11,676 nt of DNA from Fimbriimonas sp. (lineage in GTDB: Bacteria; Armatimonadota; Fimbriimonadia; Fimbriimonadales; Fimbriimonadaceae), in assembly GCA_030447945.1 (NCBI GenBank), contig JAUJNV010000047.1:1-11676 (forward strand), written 5' to 3'. The notes beneath the pieces were generated by a model that saw only the letters and a program-made list of their open reading frames with translations, did no database searches and had not been told where the DNA came from. Below are positions 2,649-11,676 of this stretch, one piece after another. Every line of letters starts with the position of its first letter. The stretch's first letter is position 1. A program made the position numbers and the translations under genes.

Positions 2649-2783
2649 GAGGAGAGGGCGTTTGGGGCTTTAAGGCGTTGGGGCCTTGAGGACGAGAGGG
2701 AGTCTTCAACCAGCGCAGGACCAAGGAGAAGCCACCCGCGCGCCAACGCCCCAACGCCCCAACGCCCCAACGCCTTCTCCTCA
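2649..2783. repeat. Gene-end inverted repeat A (TTGG-word family)
   Basis: Arms at about 2649-2692 and 2742-2783 are imperfect reverse complements. Read on the minus strand the first arm starts TGAGGAGAAGGCGTTGGGGC and the second ends GCCCCAAACGCCCTCTCC. Its outer edge is the TGA stop of the propeller gene (2781-2783). The distal arm ends about 27 nt before the GTG start of hisC. The spacer (about 2693-2741) has no ORF. There is no U-tract after the 3' arm, so a classical intrinsic terminator is not supported, though a long RNA hairpin is. Inverted repeat B at 5704-5793 shares its vocabulary and position. Confidence 0.7.
2743..2774. repeat. Four perfect tandem copies of CCAACGCC
   Basis: The 8-base unit CCAACGCC (GGCGTTGG on the minus strand) is repeated four times without a mismatch at 2743, 2751, 2759 and 2767. 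It makes up most of one arm of inverted repeat A. The opposite arm has only one clear copy (about 2673-2680), so the array has expanded on one side only. Such arrays commonly vary in copy number by replication slippage. Confidence 0.92.
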
Positions 2784-3881
2784 CATCCCCGGGAGCGCCT
2801 CAAACGGGGTGTAGGCCAGGCTGTCCACGCCCTTTGCGCACTCCAGGCTTCCCGCGAGCGTCTGATTTTGGAGGTTCAGAACGGCAATCCCGCCCGAGGC
2901 GGCGAAGCTGGCATAGGCGTAATCGCTGTAGGGATGAACCACGATGGAGGAAGACCGGCTCCTGGCGCCTGGGCGGCTGGGCGGCCGAGCCACGCGGAGG
3001 CGCTTGACTTCCTTTTCCGACCAGCTGCTTAGGAAGGCGATCTCGCCGCTGCCCGGGTGGCTGACGAGCGCGTGCTCGGAATCCCGGGTCACCGCGATGC
3101 TCAACGGGGAGCCGTGGGAGGGGAACGTCTTGCGGAGACCGAGGGTGGCGGTATCCACCGTGGCGACGGTGCCGCTCCGGCTGTCGCTCAGCCAAAGCGT
3201 CTCCCCGTCCGGAGCAATCGCAATGCTGTCGCTCGGCGGGATCGAGGGTGCCACGGTCGCCATTTTCTGGCGGAGATCGAGCACGGTCAGCCCCTTCGCC
3301 CCCGAGCTTGCGGTGTATACGGTTTGGCCCTTCCGCGAGAGGGTGAAGGTTTCCCCCTCTCGCGAGCCCCGCGTGAGCGTCTGCTCGACTCTTTGCTCGA
3401 CCGTGTCCACGACCAGAATAGCGGGTGGCCGGTGGCTAGCAACGGCAACATGCCTATCGTCCAGCCAAACCGGATCGTGCAGTCCCCGGTACGCGCCGAG
3501 CGGCATCCGCCATGAGATTTTCCGCTGGGGGATGTTAATCAACGTGAGAGAGTCTCCCTCCGCTTGCGGAGGTCCGGATTGGCAGGAGATCGCACGGTAT
3601 CCGATCGGAGCCACCACGAGTGATCTATGGCCCTTGCCGATGAGAATCGTGCCGCTCGTGGCTCCGCTCGTCAGGCTGATAAGGGCCACGGTACCCTTCT
3701 GGCTGTCGAGCGCCAGAAGGGTCCCTTCCGTCGAGGGAAGGCCCGGGCTGGCCTTCGCGTAGGTGGCGGAACCCGTGGGCAAGAAGACCTCCAGGCCACC
3801 CCACATCGCGGCGGACGCGACGAGCACCGCCAGGATCAGACATACGAGCGACACCGGCCCAACGTTGATCTTTTTAGACAT
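2781..3881 (-). CDS. Membrane-anchored YVTN/YncE-like beta-propeller protein
   Basis: A 366-residue protein of unknown specific function. Residues 1-8 are short and positively charged. Residues about 9-30 (VGPVSLVCLILAVLVASAAM) are one hydrophobic segment, either a signal anchor or an uncleaved signal peptide, so the rest should face the periplasm. From about 50 to 360 it contains repeated blades of the YVTN/surface-antigen type: GTLLALDSQKGTVALI, AILVVDTVEQRVEQTL, GLTVLDLRQ, IAIAPDGETLWLSDSRSGTVATVDTAT, SIAVTRDSEHALVSHPGSGEIAFL and IVVHPYSDYAYASFAASGGIAVLNLQ. No catalytic or haem motif is visible, so binding or scaffolding is more likely than catalysis. ATG 3881 is chosen over in-frame starts further upstream (3926) because GGGAAG lies just before it and the charged-then-hydrophobic N-terminus begins here. 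A C-terminal fragment of a paralogue lies directly upstream (4011-4223). Confidence 0.85.
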   Translation of the reverse strand: MSKKINVGPVSLVCLILAVLVASAAMWGGLEVFLPTGSATYAKASPGLPSTEGTLLALDSQKGTVALISLTSGATSGTILIGKGHRSLVVAPIGYRAISCQSGPPQAEGDSLTLINIPQRKISWRMPLGAYRGLHDPVWLDDRHVAVASHRPPAILVVDTVEQRVEQTLTRGSREGETFTLSRKGQTVYTASSGAKGLTVLDLRQKMATVAPSIPPSDSIAIAPDGETLWLSDSRSGTVATVDTATLGLRKTFPSHGSPLSIAVTRDSEHALVSHPGSGEIAFLSSWSEKEVKRLRVARPPSRPGARSRSSSIVVHPYSDYAYASFAASGGIAVLNLQNQTLAGSLECAKGVDSLAYTPFEALPGM

Positions 3882-4010
3882 CCCACTTCCCACAGCCATT
3901 GCTTGCTCGGGGTGCTCTACTGGCATGGCGAGAGGGGGAGTTCCGGGTCCTAGGTCCTTTGGAACACGCGTGTGAAGGGCGATCGCCTAACGTCGCCGGC
4001 CGACGCCTCG

Positions 4011-4223
4011 CTACCATTGGGGAGGCGAGTAGTCGACCGCGTCCGGTTTCGTGCCGCACTCGATGCGGGCGACCATTTCACGCTTCCCGGGATCCACCAT
4101 CGCGACCGCGCCGGAGGTGAAGACGTTGACGTAGGCGTGGCGCCTCGCCGGATGGACGACGAGGCCGGAGGAGCCCGAGTCGTAGGCAAGCGGGACGTCC
4201 TCGCCGGCACGAACATCCGGCGG
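4011..4223 (-). pseudogene. C-terminal remnant of a second beta-propeller protein
   Basis: Seventy open codons run from immediately after the serine hydrolase TAG (4224-4226), in the same frame, to TAG 4011-4013. The reading begins PPDVRAGEDVPLAYDSG, then LVVHPARRHAYVNVFTSGAV and ends IECGTKPDAVDYSPPQW. It matches the C-terminal last-blade region of the intact propeller gene next door (residues about 299-360: ARPPSRPG..., IVVHPYSDYAYASFAASGGI, LECAKGVDSLAYTPF). The shared positions are PP, VVHP, AY, SG, EC, K, D and Y-P. No ATG, GTG or TTG could start it before the in-frame ATG at about codon 42. It is therefore a 3' gene fragment left after duplication and deletion, or the 3' end of a gene lost when the hydrolase was inserted. 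The remaining 3882-4010 stretch holds only the leader of the intact propeller gene; I see no convincing promoter there. Confidence 0.75.
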
Positions 4224-5683
4224 CTACGGGCCCTTGGAGCCCATCTTTGCGCGCCGTAGTTCCGTCCAGTAGGGTAGAGCGTTGCCGTACCGCTTGCCCG
4301 GAGCGCCCCCTCCGTTGCCATCGATCCTGCTCAGCGTTAGGGCCGCTCCGTTCATCAGATCGCCACGGGGCTTCAGATCCAAATGAACGCGGTACTCGTA
4401 GCGCGCCGCGTCGTCCGTCCGCACGTCGCCGTCGAAGACGCCGTACCCGCGCCCGTTAGTGATTTGCAGGTCCTCGACCGGATGCTCCTCTCGTCCCAAC
4501 CGAGCGATCGCTCCATCACCTTCGCGGATGTCCAGCATGAACGGCAGCCGCTCGTTGTAGGTCTCGATCGTCCCCTCCCATCGCCCGAAGAAACTGGCGG
4601 GTACCGGATCCCCCGGATCCTCGGGCTTGAGCGCCGCTCGCTCCGCACGAAGACGCTCCTCCAGTACGGGTACCACGGCGGCGACGGCGTCGTCCGACGA
4701 TCGCACGGCAAGAGCGCTCTGGCCGTTGGTGACGATGGCGACGACGAGGTCCAGCTCGGGAACGAGCGTCAGGGCCGTGGTCACTCCACCCATCTGCCCC
4801 ATGTGCTGCACGATGTGAGCTCCCAGACGGTCCCGATTGCTGGCCCAGCCAAGGCCGTAACCCCGCGTCTCGTCCATGAGGATGGACGGGCGATGCATCT
4901 CCGCGAGCACGTCGGGGGAGAGGAGGCCGGGGCCTTGGCCAAGGTGGAACCGGCCAAAAGCGAGCAGGTCCTCGATACTCGCGTAAGCGGCCGAACCGCC
5001 CGGGTGGTCGAATGTGTAGTGGGGATAGGGGACGCCATCGGGGCCGTAGGCGACGGCTTCTCCGCCCTCGGCCGGGGCGCCGATGGAGGAGTCTCGCATG
5101 CCCAGGGGAGCGAACACCTCGTCCGCCATGAACTCCGCGTAAGGCCGCCCAGAGAGCCGCTCGATCAGCAGATCGAGCAGTCCGTAGCCGAGGTTGGAGT
5201 AGTGGTACCGCTCGCCCGGCGGGGAAAAGAGCTTCGCGTAGCGCTGGATGACCTCGTCCATCGGAGGCCGCCGGCAGGGCTCGTCGGCATAGAAGAACCG
5301 GTAGAACGTGGGCAACCCCGCGCTGTGGTCGGCCACGCGCCGCACCGTCGCCCCCTGCGCGTCACCCGCCTTCCCCTCGATCCTGGCACCTTCCAGGTAG
5401 TCGTTCAGGGGCGCGTCCAGATCGACGAGCCCCCGCTGCGCGAGGAGCATGAGCCCCGTCGTCGTCATCGGCTTGGTCACGGAGGCGAGCGAGTACGGCG
5501 TCTGCGGCGTCGCGGGGGTGCCCCGCTCCCGGTTTGCGAGCCCGGCCGCACCCAGCAGAAGCGTCTCCTTGCCCCGCGAGATGCCGTACGTTACCGAGGG
5601 AGGGTGAGCGGATCGAGAGCCCGGACAAGGTTCTCTTCGAACTCACGCAGCGAGGCGGGAACGGCAGACGGGCGTAGGCTCAC
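4224..5683 (-). pseudogene. Serine hydrolase (class C beta-lactamase fold) with lipocalin-like tail, N-terminal frameshift
   Basis: A beta-lactamase-fold (PF00144-like) serine hydrolase/transpeptidase homologue. Its motifs are SVTK (S-x-x-K nucleophile, Val codon at 5478-5480), HYSNLGYG (Y-x-N) and QHMGQMGG (H-x-G). The C-terminal 125 or so residues (FFGRWEGTIETYN... to LPYWTELRR) resemble the beta-barrel tail common in this family, and the end looks natural. Upstream of the nucleophile the frame reads SVTYGISRGKETLLLGAAG, the usual first strands. That frame has no ATG, GTG or TTG between an upstream TGA (at about 5642-5644) and the GTG inside SVTK. The frame before it, from GTG 5683 (VSLRPSAVPASLREFEENL...RALDPLTLP), reads as the normal N-terminal helix and stops at TAA 5591-5593. 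One extra C in the C-run at about 5596-5604 joins the two into 486 codons. Substrate is unknown (peptide, ester or beta-lactam). No signal peptide is visible and the GTG lacks a good ribosome site. Confidence 0.82.
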
Positions 5684-5703
5684 GGAGCAAGAGTATCTCG
5701 AAA

Positions 5704-5793
5704 GAGTTGAGCGTTGGAGGTTGAGGATTGAGGGTTGAGGGAGACGGCTCCGGTCTCAATACTCAACACCCAACGTCCAACGCCCAACCCTCA
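5704..5793. repeat. Gene-end inverted repeat B (heptamer TTGG/TTGAG family)
   Basis: Arms 5704-5740 and 5755-5793 are imperfect reverse complements built of seven-base units. On the minus strand the first arm reads TGAGGGTTGGGCGTTGG then ACGTTGGGTGTTGAGTATTGAG. The second arm reads as its complement with substitutions mostly between G and A. A short inner stem GAGAC/GTCTC (5741-5745, 5753-5757) closes the loop. The outer edge is the secretin TGA stop (5791-5793), as in repeat A. The other edge lies about 20 nt before the hydrolase GTG. This gap contains no other gene. Confidence 0.75.
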
Positions 5794-8253
5794 GCCCTTC
5801 CCGCCAGGGGGCGGAACCTTCGGCTGGCTCACGGGCGGCTTCGTGCCCACGCCGCCCCGGCCTAGTTCCTTTCCGAGGGTCTTCTGGCTGGGGTCGCTCA
5901 GGCGGCGTTGCTCCGACTCGCGGAGGCGGCGTGCCTCGTCCGCATCGCGCACGATGCGCGGCGTGAGGAACACGAGCAACTCGGTCTTCGTGTTCTGCTT
6001 CGACGTCGACCGGAAGAGATTCCCGAGGATCGGGATGTCGCCAAGGAGCGGGATCTTCCGCACCCTCGAAGTCACGACCGAGCGGATGATGCCGCCCAAG
6101 ATCACCGTCTCGCCGTCGCGCACCGACACCGTCGTGTTCGCTTGCCGCTGGTTGACGATCGGCGCGTTGAAGTCGGTGAAGCCCTGGAGGTCGTTCGCCG
6201 TCTGGCTCACGTCCATCGTCACGTACCCGTTGCTCGTGATCCGCGGGGTGACCGTCAGGACGATGCCCACGTCCTGGAAGTCATAGTTGAAGGTCAGGTT
6301 GCCGTTCGAGTCTTCGCGCGTGCTCAGCACGTACGGAATGCTCTGGCTGATGTTGATCTCGGCGGGCGCGTTGTTCGACGTGAAAATCCTTGGCGTCGAG
6401 AGCACCTGGAACTTGTCGTCGCGCTTGATGGCGCTCACAAAGGCTGAGAGCTGCGTTCCCGTGAGGGTGTACCGGAACCCGTCGGTGTTCGCGTTCGCCC
6501 CGTTCAGGCCGAAGTTCGATTCGCCCGTTCCGGTCGTGCCGGGGGTGCCAAACGGGTTGCCCTGGACGTACTTCCACTCGACCCCGAAGGCGCTGCTCGC
6601 GTCGAGGGTGGCCTCGATGATGATCGTCTCGATCATCACCTGCTCAGGAATGCGGTCCAGCTGGGTGAGGATGCTCCGGATCAGCTCCTGGTTGTCCGGC
6701 GTCGTCACGACGATGAGCGAGTTGGTGCTGACGTCGGGGATGACCGTGATCTGGCCCGTGAGGTCGCGCACGTTGACGAGACGCCCCTGAGCGTCCCGCG
6801 CCGTCTGAGCGCCACCCGGGCCGGGGCGTTGCCCTTGGCCGCCTCCTCCGAAAACGCGGTTGAAGCCGCCGCCTTGCTGAACGCCGATGGAGGTCATTAG
6901 CTCACCTTCCTCGGCGTCGGGGTCGGCGAGCATGAGCTCCATCGACTGCTCGTCCGGCTCCACCGAACGACCGCCGCCCAAGCCTCCGCCCTGGTTCCGC
7001 CGTCCCCCTGCGTTGTTCCGGTTTCCGGCGTTATTACGATTCCCCGTGTTACGGTTTCCGGCGTTGTTGGGGCGCTGGGCCATGCCCGTCCCGGCGCCTT
7101 GGCGGGTGCCGAAGGCTTGCTGGAGCAGCGTCGCCACTTGGTCGGCGCGGGCGTTCTCCAGTTGCAAAACGAACGCCGCATTCTCCAGCTTGATCTCGGT
7201 GTCGAGCTCGGCGATGACCTGCTCGACGAGCTTGAGGTTCTGGTCGGTCGCCGTAACGACGAGCGCATTGGTTCGGGGATCGCTCACCACCGTTCCGAAG
7301 GACGCCTGGGCGGAGCCGAACCGCATCGCCTGCTGCATCCGCTGCATCGGGTCGATGTTCTGCGTGCCGATGCCGCCGCGACCGCGCGGGGCATTGGAGA
7401 CGAGGACGTTTTGAACCACGGGCGCGAGATCGTCGGACGACGCGAATTGAAGCTTGAAGACGCGCGGCTTCTGGGGCTCTTCGGTCTGTCGGTCAAGTTG
7501 CGTGATAAGGTCCTGAATCTCTCCCTGCTCACGATCCGGAGCGTTGACGATTACCGAGTTGCTGAAGTCGTCCGAAGAAGCGCGAACCGTTGGACCTTGT
7601 CCCGGCACTCCGCCCGCGAAGCGCCCGCGTCCGCCTTGGCCACCGCCGCCGAATCGGTTGCCACCCCGGCCGCCCTGGCCACCTCCGCCCGCGCCGCCCA
7701 TCATCTGCTGAAGGCCGGCCAGCGGGTTAGGAGTGGTCGCGAAAACCTCATTGATCACACGGGCGACCTGGCTCGCGTTCGCGAACTTGATCGTGTAGAT
7801 CCTCAGGTTGTTGCCCGAGCCCCGCTGGTTCATCATCTGCATGATTTGCTCGGCGGTGGGGCCCCCGCCTCCGGCGCCGCGGCCTCCGCCACCTTGCCGG
7901 ATGACGAGCAGCTTCCCGGACTTCTCGATGCGGTAGCCCTTGAGCCCCAGCGTCGTCGAGAGGATCTGGAAGGCGTCGTTCAGCGACACCGGCTTCGCGC
8001 TGGTGAGCGTAATCGGGCCGGTGAGCGCGGGATCCTTCACGATCGTGATGCCGGAGGTACGCGAGAGGAGGGAGATGACGGCGTCGATGTTCGCGTTCCG
8101 GAAGTCCAGGCTGATCCTCGTCCGCGGGTTAAGCGCGAACGACGACCACGCCGGCCGCTCCACTGCACCCGCGCCGGTGTCGAACTGTGCGAATGAGCCC
8201 GCGGGGGCGACGCACACCAGCGCCGCCAGAAAGACCTTTATTGCTCTCATCAT
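5791..8253 (-). CDS. gspD: Outer-membrane secretin (GspD/PilQ family)
   Basis: This 820-residue protein would form the multimeric outer-membrane channel of a type II secretion or type IV pilus machine. Residues 1-22 are a signal peptide (MMRAIKVFLAALVCVAPAGS, cleavage near FA-Q23). An N0/STN domain spans about 46-118 (ISLDFRNANIDAVISLLSRT... LKGYRIEKSGKLLVI). Three N-domains follow: N1 about 150-256, N2 265-352 and N3 358-535. Each has the paired strands 'hKLxhAxxxxVxxhh' and 'hxxDxxxNxhhhxxxxxxxxxhxxhhxxLD'. The secretin domain is about 538-768, ending in the family signature KIPLLGDIPILGNLFR (733-748) and TELLVFLTPRIV. Long Gly- and Asn-rich inserts interrupt N1 (186-222) and N3 (383-480). 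A charged then proline-rich tail (770-820) could be a pilotin-type S-domain. The start ATG 8253 directly follows the TAA (8254-8256) of the intended gspC/pilP frame; ATG 8250 is an alternative. Last gene of the operon. Confidence 0.95.
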   Translation of the reverse strand: MMRAIKVFLAALVCVAPAGSFAQFDTGAGAVERPAWSSFALNPRTRISLDFRNANIDAVISLLSRTSGITIVKDPALTGPITLTSAKPVSLNDAFQILSTTLGLKGYRIEKSGKLLVIRQGGGGRGAGGGGPTAEQIMQMMNQRGSGNNLRIYTIKFANASQVARVINEVFATTPNPLAGLQQMMGGAGGGGQGGRGGNRFGGGGQGGRGRFAGGVPGQGPTVRASSDDFSNSVIVNAPDREQGEIQDLITQLDRQTEEPQKPRVFKLQFASSDDLAPVVQNVLVSNAPRGRGGIGTQNIDPMQRMQQAMRFGSAQASFGTVVSDPRTNALVVTATDQNLKLVEQVIAELDTEIKLENAAFVLQLENARADQVATLLQQAFGTRQGAGTGMAQRPNNAGNRNTGNRNNAGNRNNAGGRRNQGGGLGGGRSVEPDEQSMELMLADPDAEEGELMTSIGVQQGGGFNRVFGGGGQGQRPGPGGAQTARDAQGRLVNVRDLTGQITVIPDVSTNSLIVVTTPDNQELIRSILTQLDRIPEQVMIETIIIEATLDASSAFGVEWKYVQGNPFGTPGTTGTGESNFGLNGANANTDGFRYTLTGTQLSAFVSAIKRDDKFQVLSTPRIFTSNNAPAEINISQSIPYVLSTREDSNGNLTFNYDFQDVGIVLTVTPRITSNGYVTMDVSQTANDLQGFTDFNAPIVNQRQANTTVSVRDGETVILGGIIRSVVTSRVRKIPLLGDIPILGNLFRSTSKQNTKTELLVFLTPRIVRDADEARRLRESEQRRLSDPSQKTLGKELGRGGVGTKPPVSQPKVPPPGGKG
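6994..7068 (-). repeat. Asn/Gly/Arg-rich imperfect tandem repeat inside the secretin gene
   Basis: Codons 396-420 of the secretin encode four degenerate copies of a six-residue unit of the type N-A-G-N-R-N (NAGNRN, TGNRNN, AGNRNN, AGGRRN). The nucleotide unit is about 18 bases and shows a recurring GGTTTCCGGCGTT-like word on the plus strand. It sits in the loop that interrupts the N3 domain, so it should form a flexible linker in the periplasmic vestibule. Length variation here would keep the frame. Confidence 0.75.
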
Positions 8254-8989
8254 TTAGTTTCCACCGGCCCGGTTCTGGGCCCTGTTTCTACGCCTTTCGG
8301 CCCTTGCTTGGTCTCGGGTCGTCGCCGCCTCACCGTTCGAGCCGGCGACCGGTGCGACGGCAAGAGGCTGGGGGCCTGCCACGGTTCCGATATTTCCCGG
8401 CAGCGCCGGCGCGATCTGCGGCGCGATTTCCTCTTCGGCGCGGGTGATGATCGACTCGCCCCCCGCCGCTCCCCGCAGCCCGATCCCCTCGGAGGAGATG
8501 CGCACGACCGTCGCGCCCTGCCGCTCCCCGCAGCCCGATCCCCTCGGAGGAGATGCGCACGACCGTCGCGCCCTGCCACTTCTGGCCGAGGCGGACGAAC
8601 TGCGAATCGCCCCCCGGGCCCTCCAGCAGCGCAGTCGGGACTCCATCGATCGTCGCCATACCCGTGAACTTCCAGCCGGAGGGTGCCCCGCCCATGCCGA
8701 TCGTCCCACCCGGTATCGGCTTGGGAGCGGTATTGGTGGCCTTCGCCGCCCGTGCTACGAGAGGCTTGAACGCATTCGTGGCCGGCATGTTCACCGGGCC
8801 GAAGCGGGCTTCGTAGTCGGCTGGGAGCACGCCCGTAATCTTCGTCGCCTTGGCGACGGCCTTTGGCCGGACCTTTCCCGACCGCTTCGCCGGCGTTTCC
8901 GGCGAGGTCAGGACGTAAGCCGCAATGGCCAACGACGCTAGCCCGACCCACAGGATCGGACTGGACTTCTTTTTAGGAGCCTTTGCCAC
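8254..8989 (-). pseudogene. GspC/PilP-like periplasmic linker protein, frameshifted by 55-bp tandem duplication
   Basis: It starts at GTG 8989, with AAGGAGGT at 8995-9002 five bases before it, and overlaps the upstream gspM/pilO gene by 17 nt. Residues 1-11 are basic, 12-27 (ILWVGLASLAIAAYVL) are a transmembrane anchor and 30-100 are a Pro/Ala/Lys linker. Residues 104-155 (GWKFTGMATIDGVPTALLEG then FVRLGQKWQGATVVRISSEG) form the small beta domain typical of GspC homology regions and PilP, which contacts the secretin N0 domain. After GIGLRGAAG (about 150-158) the frame enters the second copy of a perfect 55-bp duplication, becomes arginine-rich non-family sequence and stops at 8330. Removing one copy gives 681 nt (226 residues) with a tail GGESIITRAEEEIAPQIAP... 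ending at TAA 8254-8256, directly before the secretin ATG. The ancestral gene was therefore intact and abutted gspD. PilP versus GspC cannot be separated by eye. Confidence 0.85.
8465..8577. repeat. Perfect 55-bp tandem duplication with 3-bp microhomology
   Basis: Bases 8465-8519 are repeated exactly at 8520-8574, with no mismatch. The next three bases (8575-8577, GCC) also match, so three GCC triplets bound the copies. Flanking bases then diverge (A versus G at 8578). The unit length is not a multiple of three, so the reading frame of the GspC/PilP-like gene shifts by one. The form is what template slippage between GCC repeats, or a mis-assembly, would produce. Confidence 0.98.
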
Positions 8990-9530
8990 TCTTTACCTCC
9001 TTCTTCTCGACCGGCTTCAGAAAGGCGACCGCGCCCACGGTCGCGTTCACGCGGTCGCTCGTCGGATCGGCGGACGCGACCTGAACGAGGTTCACGGCCA
9101 GCCGGCTTCCCTGGGAGTCGAGGTCCCGCACGAAGCCCGTCACAGCGGGGAAAGGACCTTCCAGCGAGATCAGAAACGGCACCTGCGCCAGTTCGAACCC
9201 CTCGGCCGCGCGCTGGGGTCGGAAGGCGACGAGGCGCAGATTGTGCCGGCGGACCAGAGCCGATACGGTACTCATCGCCGCCGGGGCGACCTGATCCGGC
9301 GTCCCGCTCCAGAGGCGCGGGAGGGCCGCCGCAGTCGACTTCTTCCACGCCGCTTCCGCCTGCGCCGTCTCCGTCTTGATCTTTCGCTCCTCTCGGTTCC
9401 GACTCAGCGTAGAGCCGATCGCTCGAGGCTTCGACATCAGCATAAAGCCCAGCGTTATGGCCAGGACGACGACGGCGCCGGCCATCAGCACGGCCGACTT
9501 GCGCTCGGTCGTCATGTTCGTCGAAATCAT
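8973..9530 (-). CDS. GspM/PilO-like inner-membrane assembly protein
   Basis: A 185-residue bitopic inner-membrane protein. It has a short cytoplasmic N-terminus, a transmembrane helix at about 13-32 (AVLMAGAVVVLAITLGFMLM), a charged helical or coiled-coil stretch at about 38-70 and a periplasmic ferredoxin-like domain at about 85-165. That domain includes LRLVAFRPQRA, VPFLISLEGPFPAVTGFVRDL and LAVNLVQVAS, the beta-alpha pattern of PilO/GspM. Proteins of this class pair with PilN/GspL and position the ATPase and linker protein. Start ATG 9530 overlaps the preceding stop as ATGA (9527-9530) and has a purine-rich GGGAGGGGGAG tract upstream; ATG 9515 is possible. The stop TAA 8973-8975 lies inside the next gene's start region (17-nt overlap), so translation is tightly coupled. 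Family call is from architecture, context and pattern; sequence conservation in this family is low. Confidence 0.85.
   Translation of the reverse strand: MISTNMTTERKSAVLMAGAVVVLAITLGFMLMSKPRAIGSTLSRNREERKIKTETAQAEAAWKKSTAAALPRLWSGTPDQVAPAAMSTVSALVRRHNLRLVAFRPQRAAEGFELAQVPFLISLEGPFPAVTGFVRDLDSQGSRLAVNLVQVASADPTSDRVNATVGAVAFLKPVEKKEVKSGKGS
8995..9002 (-). promoter_or_regulatory. Strong ribosome binding site deciding the GTG start of the gspC/pilP-like gene
   Basis: AAGGAGGT on the minus strand, a near-perfect Shine-Dalgarno, ends five bases before GTG 8989. It lies within the 3' end of the gspM/pilO coding sequence. It settles the unusual GTG start; no competing ATG in frame has a comparable site. 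Confidence 0.85.
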
Positions 9531-10852
9531 TTCGTCGCTCCCCCTCCCGTCGTCCCGCCCGTCCTGGTCGTTTTCGCCTTGGTCCGGGCCTTTTCCTCGG
9601 CAAGGGGCACGTTGCCGACCGCGAAGGCGGAGACAGAGAAATTCACTACCGGCGTCTCCTCGATCTTCGTGTTCGTCGCGAAGACCAGTCGTACGTCTCG
9701 CAGCCGGGGCTGTCTCGTGAGGCGAGCGAGATACTGCGTGAGGACGTCGTTCCCCTTCGCCGTACCGCGGATGGTCATGGTCCGCCCGCGCTCCATCGTC
9801 ATGCCGGTGAGCCACACGCCGGGCGGAACCGCGCCGGTGACGACGGCTACGGTGTCGGTGATTCGCTGGGGCGGGGTGAAGGCCTGATTGAGGGCGAGTT
9901 CAATCCTCTTCGCGTCGCTCGCGCGGTCGAGGACGCGTTCGCTATCTTTGCGAAGCCGGTTCAGCCGGGCGTTCGCCTTCGACTGCTGGTCGTCGATCTT
10001 TTTTTGCGCGTCGCTTCGGTCGAGGTAAACGGTGAGCGCGAGCAGGGCCGCCGCGGCCCAGAGCATGAGCGCGAGCCGCATGCGCCCGCTCTCTTTCCGC
10101 CGTTCACGCTCGGTGACGACGGCGGAGGGCTCCAGGTTGAGCCCGATCGTCTCGACCTGCGCGGAGCCTAGAGCCTCCAGTGGGCTGATGACCGTCTCGA
10201 TGGCCCCCGGCAGAGCGAGGTCCCCGACGGCAACGACCCGGGCGGGAGGGACGCCGGCGGCGGCGAAGGTCCGTTGCACCTCGGCCTCCAGCGCCTCGGG
10301 GTTGGTCGCGGGGATCATGCGGCTGTACCGGAGCTCGCCTCCCGCGATCACGTCGATGGCGCTGCCCTCGTGCGTCTTCTGCACCACGGCGCACTCGGAC
10401 AAACCTAGCTCGCGAGCTACGATCACGGAGCCGAACGCCGCCGGCAGCACACGGCGGACGCGCAAGCCTGCGCCGCGCGCCTCTGCGTGCAGGCGGCTCA
10501 GGTTCGACTCGCGGATCGCCCCGATGATCGCCAGCCGGCCCTCCGGGGAAACGTCGTCGGTAAGCTGGAAGTCCATCGCCAGCTCGGCCGGCGGAACCGG
10601 AAAGAGCTGCGCCGCCTGCATCCGAAGGATCTGCCCGATCTCCGCACGGCCCACGTTCGGGACGCGCACCGCCCGCACGAAGGCCGTGCGGCGCGACACG
10701 GCGGCCACGACATCCCGCTGTCCGTTGAGGTCCGCGGCGGCCTCGCCGACGTCTCCGGCCACCCGGGTCGCGCGGGTGACGAGGTTCAGAACCGCCGCGT
10801 GGTCCGGGCTCCACTCGAGGATCGCGCCGGGGGTGGTGTGGGTCTTGCTCAC
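9527..10852 (-). CDS. GspL-like protein (PilM-PilN fusion)
   Basis: The protein has 441 residues. Residues 1 to about 245 are a cytoplasmic PilM/GspL-like domain: ILEWSPDHAAVLNLV at the first strand, then EIGQILRMQAAQLFPVPPAEL (the typical PilM 'R.E...lP...e...D...' helix region), LAIIGAIRES and RVLPAAFGSVIVAREL. A transmembrane helix is at about 258-276 (MRLALMLWAAAALLALTVYL), then a coiled coil to about 320. A PilN-type periplasmic domain at 322-412 follows, with PPGVWLTGMTMERGRTMTIRGTAKGNDVLTQYLARL in its centre, and a Lys/Thr/Gly-rich tail. This is the single-chain arrangement of GspL, equivalent to PilM plus PilN; it would anchor the secretion ATPase to the membrane. The actin-like part is short, with no clear nucleotide-binding DxG motif at the first strand. 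Start GTG 10852 overlaps the gspK stop (GTGA, 10849-10852) and has AAGGAGGA four bases upstream. Confidence 0.85.
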   Translation of the reverse strand: MSKTHTTPGAILEWSPDHAAVLNLVTRATRVAGDVGEAAADLNGQRDVVAAVSRRTAFVRAVRVPNVGRAEIGQILRMQAAQLFPVPPAELAMDFQLTDDVSPEGRLAIIGAIRESNLSRLHAEARGAGLRVRRVLPAAFGSVIVARELGLSECAVVQKTHEGSAIDVIAGGELRYSRMIPATNPEALEAEVQRTFAAAGVPPARVVAVGDLALPGAIETVISPLEALGSAQVETIGLNLEPSAVVTERERRKESGRMRLALMLWAAAALLALTVYLDRSDAQKKIDDQQSKANARLNRLRKDSERVLDRASDAKRIELALNQAFTPPQRITDTVAVVTGAVPPGVWLTGMTMERGRTMTIRGTAKGNDVLTQYLARLTRQPRLRDVRLVFATNTKIEETPVVNFSVSAFAVGNVPLAEEKARTKAKTTRTGGTTGGGATK

Positions 10853-11676
10853 GAATCCTCCTTCAGCACGACTTCGGCCGTCGTCTCTTCGACCCATCCC
10901 CAACGTGTCTCGATCTCGACGTGGGGCGGGTGCTCGATGCGGACGATGCGGGGCGTTTCGTCTTCCAGAGAAATCACAGCCTCCAAGGCGACCCGCGTCG
11001 TACCAACCTGGCCCACGCAGCGAACGAGAAACACGGTCGAGTCTACGGCGAAGAGGTCCGCCGTCTGCGCGGCGAGGGCGAGCGTATAGCCAGGGATATC
11101 GAAGAGGTTGCCCAGCCCTTCGAAGCCCGCCGACTGCCGGGAGACGATCGCCGAGGCGATGTCCGGGAGCATGTCGGGGATCGAGTTGAGCACCGGCTCT
11201 GTGGCGGTGTTGAGGTTGATCTTGCCCAGATCGACGGCCGCGTTCCCGATCCGAAAGTTATCCAGCAGGGCCCGCGCGGCCTCGTTCGACATGGTGTTCT
11301 GGTTCAGGCGGAGGACCTGACCCAAGGAGGTAAAAGCGCCTCCGGCCGCCGCGCGCTGCAGGAGGATCTGAAGCGCCAGGTTCGGATCGCCCAGCCGCTG
11401 GGTAAGGAGCGCGACGTTCGCCTGCGGCGAGTTGAGATTGACCTTCGGCTGGCCGGTGGAGGTGGTTCCCGGCGATGCCGAATCCACGGTCACGAGCTCC
11501 GCCAGAGAGGATTGATCCTCCGTCGAGCCAGCGACGACGGTCGCCGAGTTCACGGTCTGCGCCTGTGGCTCGTAAAGGATGCTGGCGGTAAAGCCTTTCA
11601 CCTGGAGTAGCTCGTCGACCGTGTCGAACGGCGCGAGCTTCGCCAACCGCGCGTTCCCCAGCATGGGCACCACGTG
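10849..11676 (-). CDS. gspK: GspK-like minor pseudopilin / helix-hairpin-helix export protein, 5' end beyond right edge
   Basis: About 275 residues are present. The frame is open to the window edge, so the N-terminus (prepilin leader and hydrophobic helix) is missing. FDTVDELLQVKGFTASILYEP is the typical GspK segment that precedes the saposin-like SAM domains. Two helix-hairpin-helix-like modules follow: VNLNSPQANVALLTQRLGDP...TSLGQVLRL and INLNTATEPVLNSIPDMLPDIA...GLGNLFDIPG. A C-terminal beta-rich part (VFLVRCVGQVGTTRVALEAVIS, ETRWGWVEE) completes the fold. In T2SS, GspK caps the pseudopilus tip together with GspI and GspJ. It is the first visible gene of the K-L-M-C-D order and is coupled to gspL by a GTGA overlap. 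The remaining pseudopilins, ATPase and GspF would be expected to the right of the window or elsewhere. Family call is good; T2SS versus T4P membership is inference. Confidence 0.85.
   Translation of the reverse strand, partial: HVVPMLGNARLAKLAPFDTVDELLQVKGFTASILYEPQAQTVNSATVVAGSTEDQSSLAELVTVDSASPGTTSTGQPKVNLNSPQANVALLTQRLGDPNLALQILLQRAAAGGAFTSLGQVLRLNQNTMSNEAARALLDNFRIGNAAVDLGKINLNTATEPVLNSIPDMLPDIASAIVSRQSAGFEGLGNLFDIPGYTLALAAQTADLFAVDSTVFLVRCVGQVGTTRVALEAVISLEDETPRIVRIEHPPHVEIETRWGWVEETTAEVVLKEDS
10856..10863 (-). promoter_or_regulatory. Ribosome binding site deciding the GTG start of the gspL-like gene
   Basis: AAGGAGGA on the minus strand, a few bases before GTG 10852 and inside the 3' end of the gspK-like gene. 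It favours this start over the in-frame upstream ATG at 10903, which would overlap gspK by 55 nt. Confidence 0.8.

Follow-up and report, generated by a model that had tools for sequence, protein, structure and literature searches.

A frame-breaking 55-bp tandem duplication in a gspC/pilP-like gene of an Armatimonadota type II secretion operon: recent mutation or assembly artefact

Results

In a window of 11,676 nucleotides (the whole stretch of contig JAUJNV010000047.1 of Fimbriimonas sp. that was analysed), we identified a perfect 55-bp tandem duplication at which the reading frame of a gspC/pilP-like gene changes (Table 1). A genuine recent mutation and an error of assembly or consensus are about equally probable origins of this confirmed, private, frame-breaking microduplication.

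Table 1. Features of the gspC/pilP-like locus, in coordinates of the window
Feature	Position	Strand	Basis
Perfect 55-bp tandem duplication (58-bp identical run)	8465..8577	-	Exact self-match; Tandem Repeats Finder; exact-repeat scan
gspC/pilP-like gene as present (219 codons from a GTG start; the frame shifts where the duplication lies)	8330..8989	-	ORF list, profile, codon use, model
HR-like domain of the gspC/pilP-like gene	about residues 107-164	-	Model of the 219-residue frame
Remainder of the gspC-like gene, read in a second frame and ending in a TAA that adjoins the secretin start	8254..8464	-	Profile, codon use
GspD secretin	5791..8253	-	Family-model match (TIGR02517, 394.6 bits; cut-off 351.35)
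GspM-like gene (listed ORF 8973-9815)	8973..9530	-	Family match; start inferred from an ATG overlapping the end of the preceding gene and from lengths in relatives
PilM/PilN-like (GspL-type) gene, listed ORF	9527..10903	-	Family match
GspK-like gene, truncated by the window end	10849..11676	-	Family match

A GspC/PilP-like secretin linker

The duplicated gene encodes a GspC/PilP-like secretin linker in an Armatimonadota type II secretion operon. It adjoins the GspD secretin gene in an operon with GspK-, GspL- and GspM-like genes, and its product contains a periplasmic domain of the HR type; fold matches and the position before the secretin support the gene type assigned in a preliminary description made from the sequence alone. 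Unlike known GspC/PilP HR-domain linkers, however, the window linker has a sequence that falls below family thresholds. The NCBIfam model GspC_delta scored 17.3 bits for the window linker and 15.1 bits for the relative at locus L013 against a cut-off of 150, and gave no match for that at L019; Pfam at cut-off returned no family for the window linker frames or three relatives; and a search of solved-structure profiles by sequence yielded one weak match only, to a topoisomerase (E 0.021).

The linker family that precedes the secretin in type II operons of Armatimonadota (loci L001-L068) likewise lies below Pfam and NCBIfam cut-offs in the members tested (for Pfam, the window and three relatives; for NCBIfam, the window and two relatives). 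Knowing of a GspC/PilP-like linker that escapes the family models is a modest aid to annotation. At one of these loci, L042, two GspC/PilP-like genes stand in tandem before the secretin (L042:11-616 and L042:624-1406), the first of which matches the family profile with 72.5 bits.

Change of reading frame at the duplication

Over a run of 58 bases in the window, each base is identical to the base 55 further on, which makes a perfect tandem duplication of period 55 with copies at 8465-8519 and 8520-8574 and a GCC common to the boundaries. Tandem Repeats Finder recovered the same array, together with two further arrays that lie elsewhere in the window and are unrelated, and a scan of the window for exact tandem repeats of period 25-259 found none besides this one. 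The two identical copies, the shared GCC and their location had thus been described correctly.

Upstream of the repeat, frame A is open from 8989 down to 8330 (219 codons); past the repeat, frame B closes with a TAA (8256-8254) that adjoins the secretin ATG at 8253. The protein of 226 residues that had been proposed to result from deleting one copy is right by length (736 - 55 = 681, or 226 codons and a stop), a figure obtained by arithmetic alone with no sequence joined. With a codon-use model trained on five further genes from the window, frame A scored +28.4 bits before the repeat (other frames, -134.1 and -47.4 bits) and frame B +4.9 bits past it (continuing frame, -41.2 bits; third frame, -38.7 bits). 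Because frame B is open for 69 codons up to the secretin start and has better codon use than either alternative, it shows no decay yet. In a sliding plot of 120-base windows the frame switches between 8586-8467 and 8556-8437, single windows of this plot being noisy, with a one-window flicker also in the glycine-rich part of the secretin (7686-7567).

A profile built from 55 distinct relatives scored 149.4 bits against frame A, over profile positions 40-212, and 16.5 bits against frame B, over positions 179-266. Both matches span the duplicated segment, as expected of a duplication. Since the match to frame A extends about 18 residues into the out-of-frame peptide, the profile alone locates the frame change loosely. 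The reading frame of the gspC-like gene changes at the duplication, and the frame break reported in the preliminary description is supported by both codon use and the profile.

Relatives across the site

The 55 distinct relatives were taken from 65 of the 68 loci; L012, L016 and L018, where the secretin matches begin near the locus start, gave none. Past the duplication site a single frame reaches profile position 235 or beyond in all 55, which are open frames of at least 120 codons picked by similarity and also the source of the profile, one of them (L055) losing its beginning to the edge of the contig. The preliminary description had named conservation of the longer frame in homologues as an outcome that would count against its reading; a conserved longer protein is ruled out, as 55 of 55 relatives are single-frame at the site and their tails match frame B. 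Because the frame changes at the duplication and every relative is single-frame, we conclude that the two-copy allele is private to this contig and is not a shared longer protein.

The same copy junction, which had been suggested as something to look for in related genomes, did not appear: no exact tandem repeat of period 25-259 was found at this site or elsewhere in L001-L068 (446,634 bases), although these relatives are distant (best secretin, 66%). From 2994 candidates, a protein search with the linker for another allele recovered just two proteins, that of the window itself and one with 34% identity. A search for another allele via the secretin gave at best 68% identity at 70% coverage among the 120 listed (637 hits; 7989 candidates scored), a list that lacks the window's own secretin and so is no proof of absence. 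No plasmid matches to the window were found.

Recent duplication or assembly artefact

The best explanation of these results, in which our confidence and our doubt are about evenly matched, is that the gspC-like gene of a single Armatimonadota strain recently underwent a spontaneous tandem duplication of 55 bp. The simplest route would be a replication slip between two GCC triplets lying 55 bp apart. Homology of at least 3 bp at distance 55 occurs by chance at 6.1% of operon positions (mean over distances 40-70, 7.2%), so the 3-bp junction homology adds little to the case for a real duplication. A hairpin as the cause of the slip was rejected, as the strand at the duplication folds no better than shuffled sequence (z 0.00; 90 of 200 shuffles equally good). 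For a real duplication we counted its exactness together with the junction homology, the undecayed frame B, the profile match to both frames, the single-frame relatives, the tight linker-secretin junction in relatives and the precedent of a 57-bp duplication at the dop promoter of another bacterium; against it we counted the k-like unit, a second gene that seems out of frame, the rarity of such repeats in control sequence, the failure of the protein searches to turn up a second allele, the score of only +4.9 bits over 70 codons for frame B and the loose placement by the profile.

Nearly as likely, because the 55-bp unit matches a default SPAdes k and another gene of the window is seemingly out of frame at its start, is an artefact of assembly or consensus. 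In that case the genome would carry a single copy, and the assembler would have written out a k-length overlap twice in joining two pieces, or low coverage would have led to errors. The default k values of SPAdes and metaSPAdes are 21, 33 and 55, the last being exactly the period of the duplication, and the finding that all 55 distinct relatives are single-frame at the site fits an artefact as well.

The second gene encodes a serine hydrolase (PF00144; window 4224-5690), which scores 207.6 bits in its open frame. That frame is open from 5642 to 4224 without an in-frame ATG, GTG or TTG before 5480, so that no usual in-frame start codon precedes what we take, by eye, to be the catalytic SxxK region, and the PF00144 match begins at profile position 15, with the first 14 positions missing. 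From the lack of a start codon before 5480 and the late beginning of the match, the start probably lies in another frame; a candidate start piece in another frame, scanned alone, had no PF00144 match. The first residues are seemingly encoded in another frame near 5600, which may mark a second frame lesion or a sequence error; a gene that seems out of frame at its start fits a poor consensus.

Control sequence speaks to both explanations. In 600 IMG/VR contig pieces (5,349,711 bases), we found 20 exact tandem repeats of period 25-299 in 16 pieces, 16 of the 20 being multiples of three. None had a period of 55, 77, 99 or 127, whereas two were at 33 and five at 30, and two were of at least 50 (60 and 66). 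This absence of an excess at assembler k lengths (0 of 20) would speak against an artefact, but the control, viral contigs from mixed sources and assemblers, is too small to exclude one. Forty 20-kb genome pieces from the same class, scanned over the same range of periods, contained four exact repeats in 800,000 bases (periods 32, 32, 36 and 45). All controls together held 24 exact tandem repeats in about 6.6 Mb, part of the 446,634-base L001-L068 control being the same locus fetched twice; the two with a period of at least 50 are both multiples of three, and no frame-breaking exact repeat of at least 50 bp was found. Thus, exact frame-breaking repeats this long are rare, whichever their origin. 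The duplication is of a kind already known, and is most likely either an ordinary one-off lesion or an artefact.

Comparison with duplication-based switches

The preliminary description had also proposed that the contig represents the OFF state of a switch. A selected on/off switch (phase variation) of secretion, operating through a reversible tandem duplication, is in our view improbable. In its fullest form, to which we give equally little credence, the 55-bp repeat would turn the GspC-like linker off and uncouple secretin translation, and a minority of cells would thereby escape a cost of type II secretion in Armatimonadota, such as phage entry. The duplication is perfect, lies inside an open frame and breaks it, as in phase variation of this kind, and because the copies are identical one of them could be lost by slippage or recombination.

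The pneumococcal capsule-gene duplications are known for their reversion. Phase variation by spontaneous tandem duplication has been reported in culture for such genes (the type 3 locus, cap8E and tts; PMC4022640, which cites Waite 2001, 2003), and the anatomy is the same as here: a tandem duplication within a reading frame breaks a gene of surface machinery and could revert. In contrast to those cultures, the present case is one contig in a single state. In Ralstonia, loss of type II secretion is selectable by phage (PMC9765573), which would favor a switch. Fungal ssp1, according to a review (PMC13207564), undergoes microhomology-mediated tandem duplications that break the frame and are reversible; it shares with our case a localised frame-breaking duplication bounded by short matching sequences, but ours is bacterial, has only 3 bp of homology and carries no evidence of reversion. 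In another bacterium, the Erdman strain, a 57-bp tandem duplication at the dop promoter is reported as genuine on the strength of long reads, and its copy number varies between assemblies of that strain (PMC12817950). Its unit is similar in length to ours (57 versus 55 bp), but the Erdman duplication is supported by long reads and is interpreted in terms of promoter copy number rather than a broken frame. Among the matches listed from open-licence literature, none described a type II system switched by duplication in its title or the opening of its abstract.

No relative carries an exact repeat at this place, distant though the relatives are, no further tandem array lies near the site, one state only was seen, and any spontaneous duplication may have a 3-bp junction homology. 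With no one-copy allele found either, the OFF state is unsupported, and the fresh loss mutation and the assembly artefact that the same description had offered as alternatives are likelier. A lone contig whose single exact repeat has an assembler-like length calls for caution and is not evidence of a switch; if real and recurrent, such a duplication would carry switching of this type beyond capsule genes and into a secretion machine.

Probable consequences for the linker and for secretin translation

If the duplication is a recent mutation, the frame would shift where the HR-like domain ends, an unrelated arginine-rich tail would replace the natural one, and translation would stop 76 bases ahead of the secretin start codon instead of beside it; as a result of these three changes the mutation would probably weaken or abolish secretion. 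The claim that it knocks the gene out holds as far as the broken frame is concerned, but is stronger than the evidence allows. When the linkers of 32 relatives were aligned with the window frame and P0002, the columns invariant in the family fell before the duplication. The near-invariant columns include a glycine at the copy boundary and a proline in the tail, and the tail beyond the HR-like domain is highly variable in length, and also in sequence, across the family. With the HR-like domain ending at roughly the position of the duplication, the harm done may be small and consist mainly in loss of the last HR-like strand, the variable tail and the tight junction with the secretin.

A predicted model of the 219-residue frame (mean pLDDT 69.8, pTM 0.40) has six strands; the two-copy product would keep its helix and most of the HR-like domain. 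The last strand (residues 160-164) is read out of frame from the second copy, with a mean pLDDT of 91 for residues 151-160 and 71 for residues 161-170, and the tail has block pLDDT values of 40-59. Since the predictor's alignment sets the out-of-frame peptide on the last strand of the relatives, the sixth strand is weakly supported. A two-copy gene that works in its present form, with frame A encoding a whole HR-like domain whose last strand is new and whose tail differs, would agree with the six strands of the model and the variable family tail but is the least probable of the readings, given the alignment bias at the last strand, the low tail pLDDT and pTM, and the loss of the natural tail with its near-invariant proline and of the tight secretin junction.

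Translation of frame A stops 76 bases short of the secretin ATG, whereas the normal stop adjoins it. The linker stop and the secretin start lie at most 40 bases apart in 46 of the 51 relatives with a start call, these calls being heuristic (4 of 55 relatives gave none, and at least one call, at L029, looks wrong). Loss of the linker-secretin junction might lower translation of the secretin.

Other features of the window

Directly past the serine-hydrolase stop, the codon-use plot shows a coding-like remnant at about 3970-4223. By eye it resembles the C-terminal end of the beta-propeller gene at 2781-3926 and may be what remains of a paralogue. Tandem Repeats Finder located a short array of an 8-bp unit at 2739-2774 (CGCCCCAA, 4.5 copies), close to the beginning of a gene that by eye looks aminotransferase-like.
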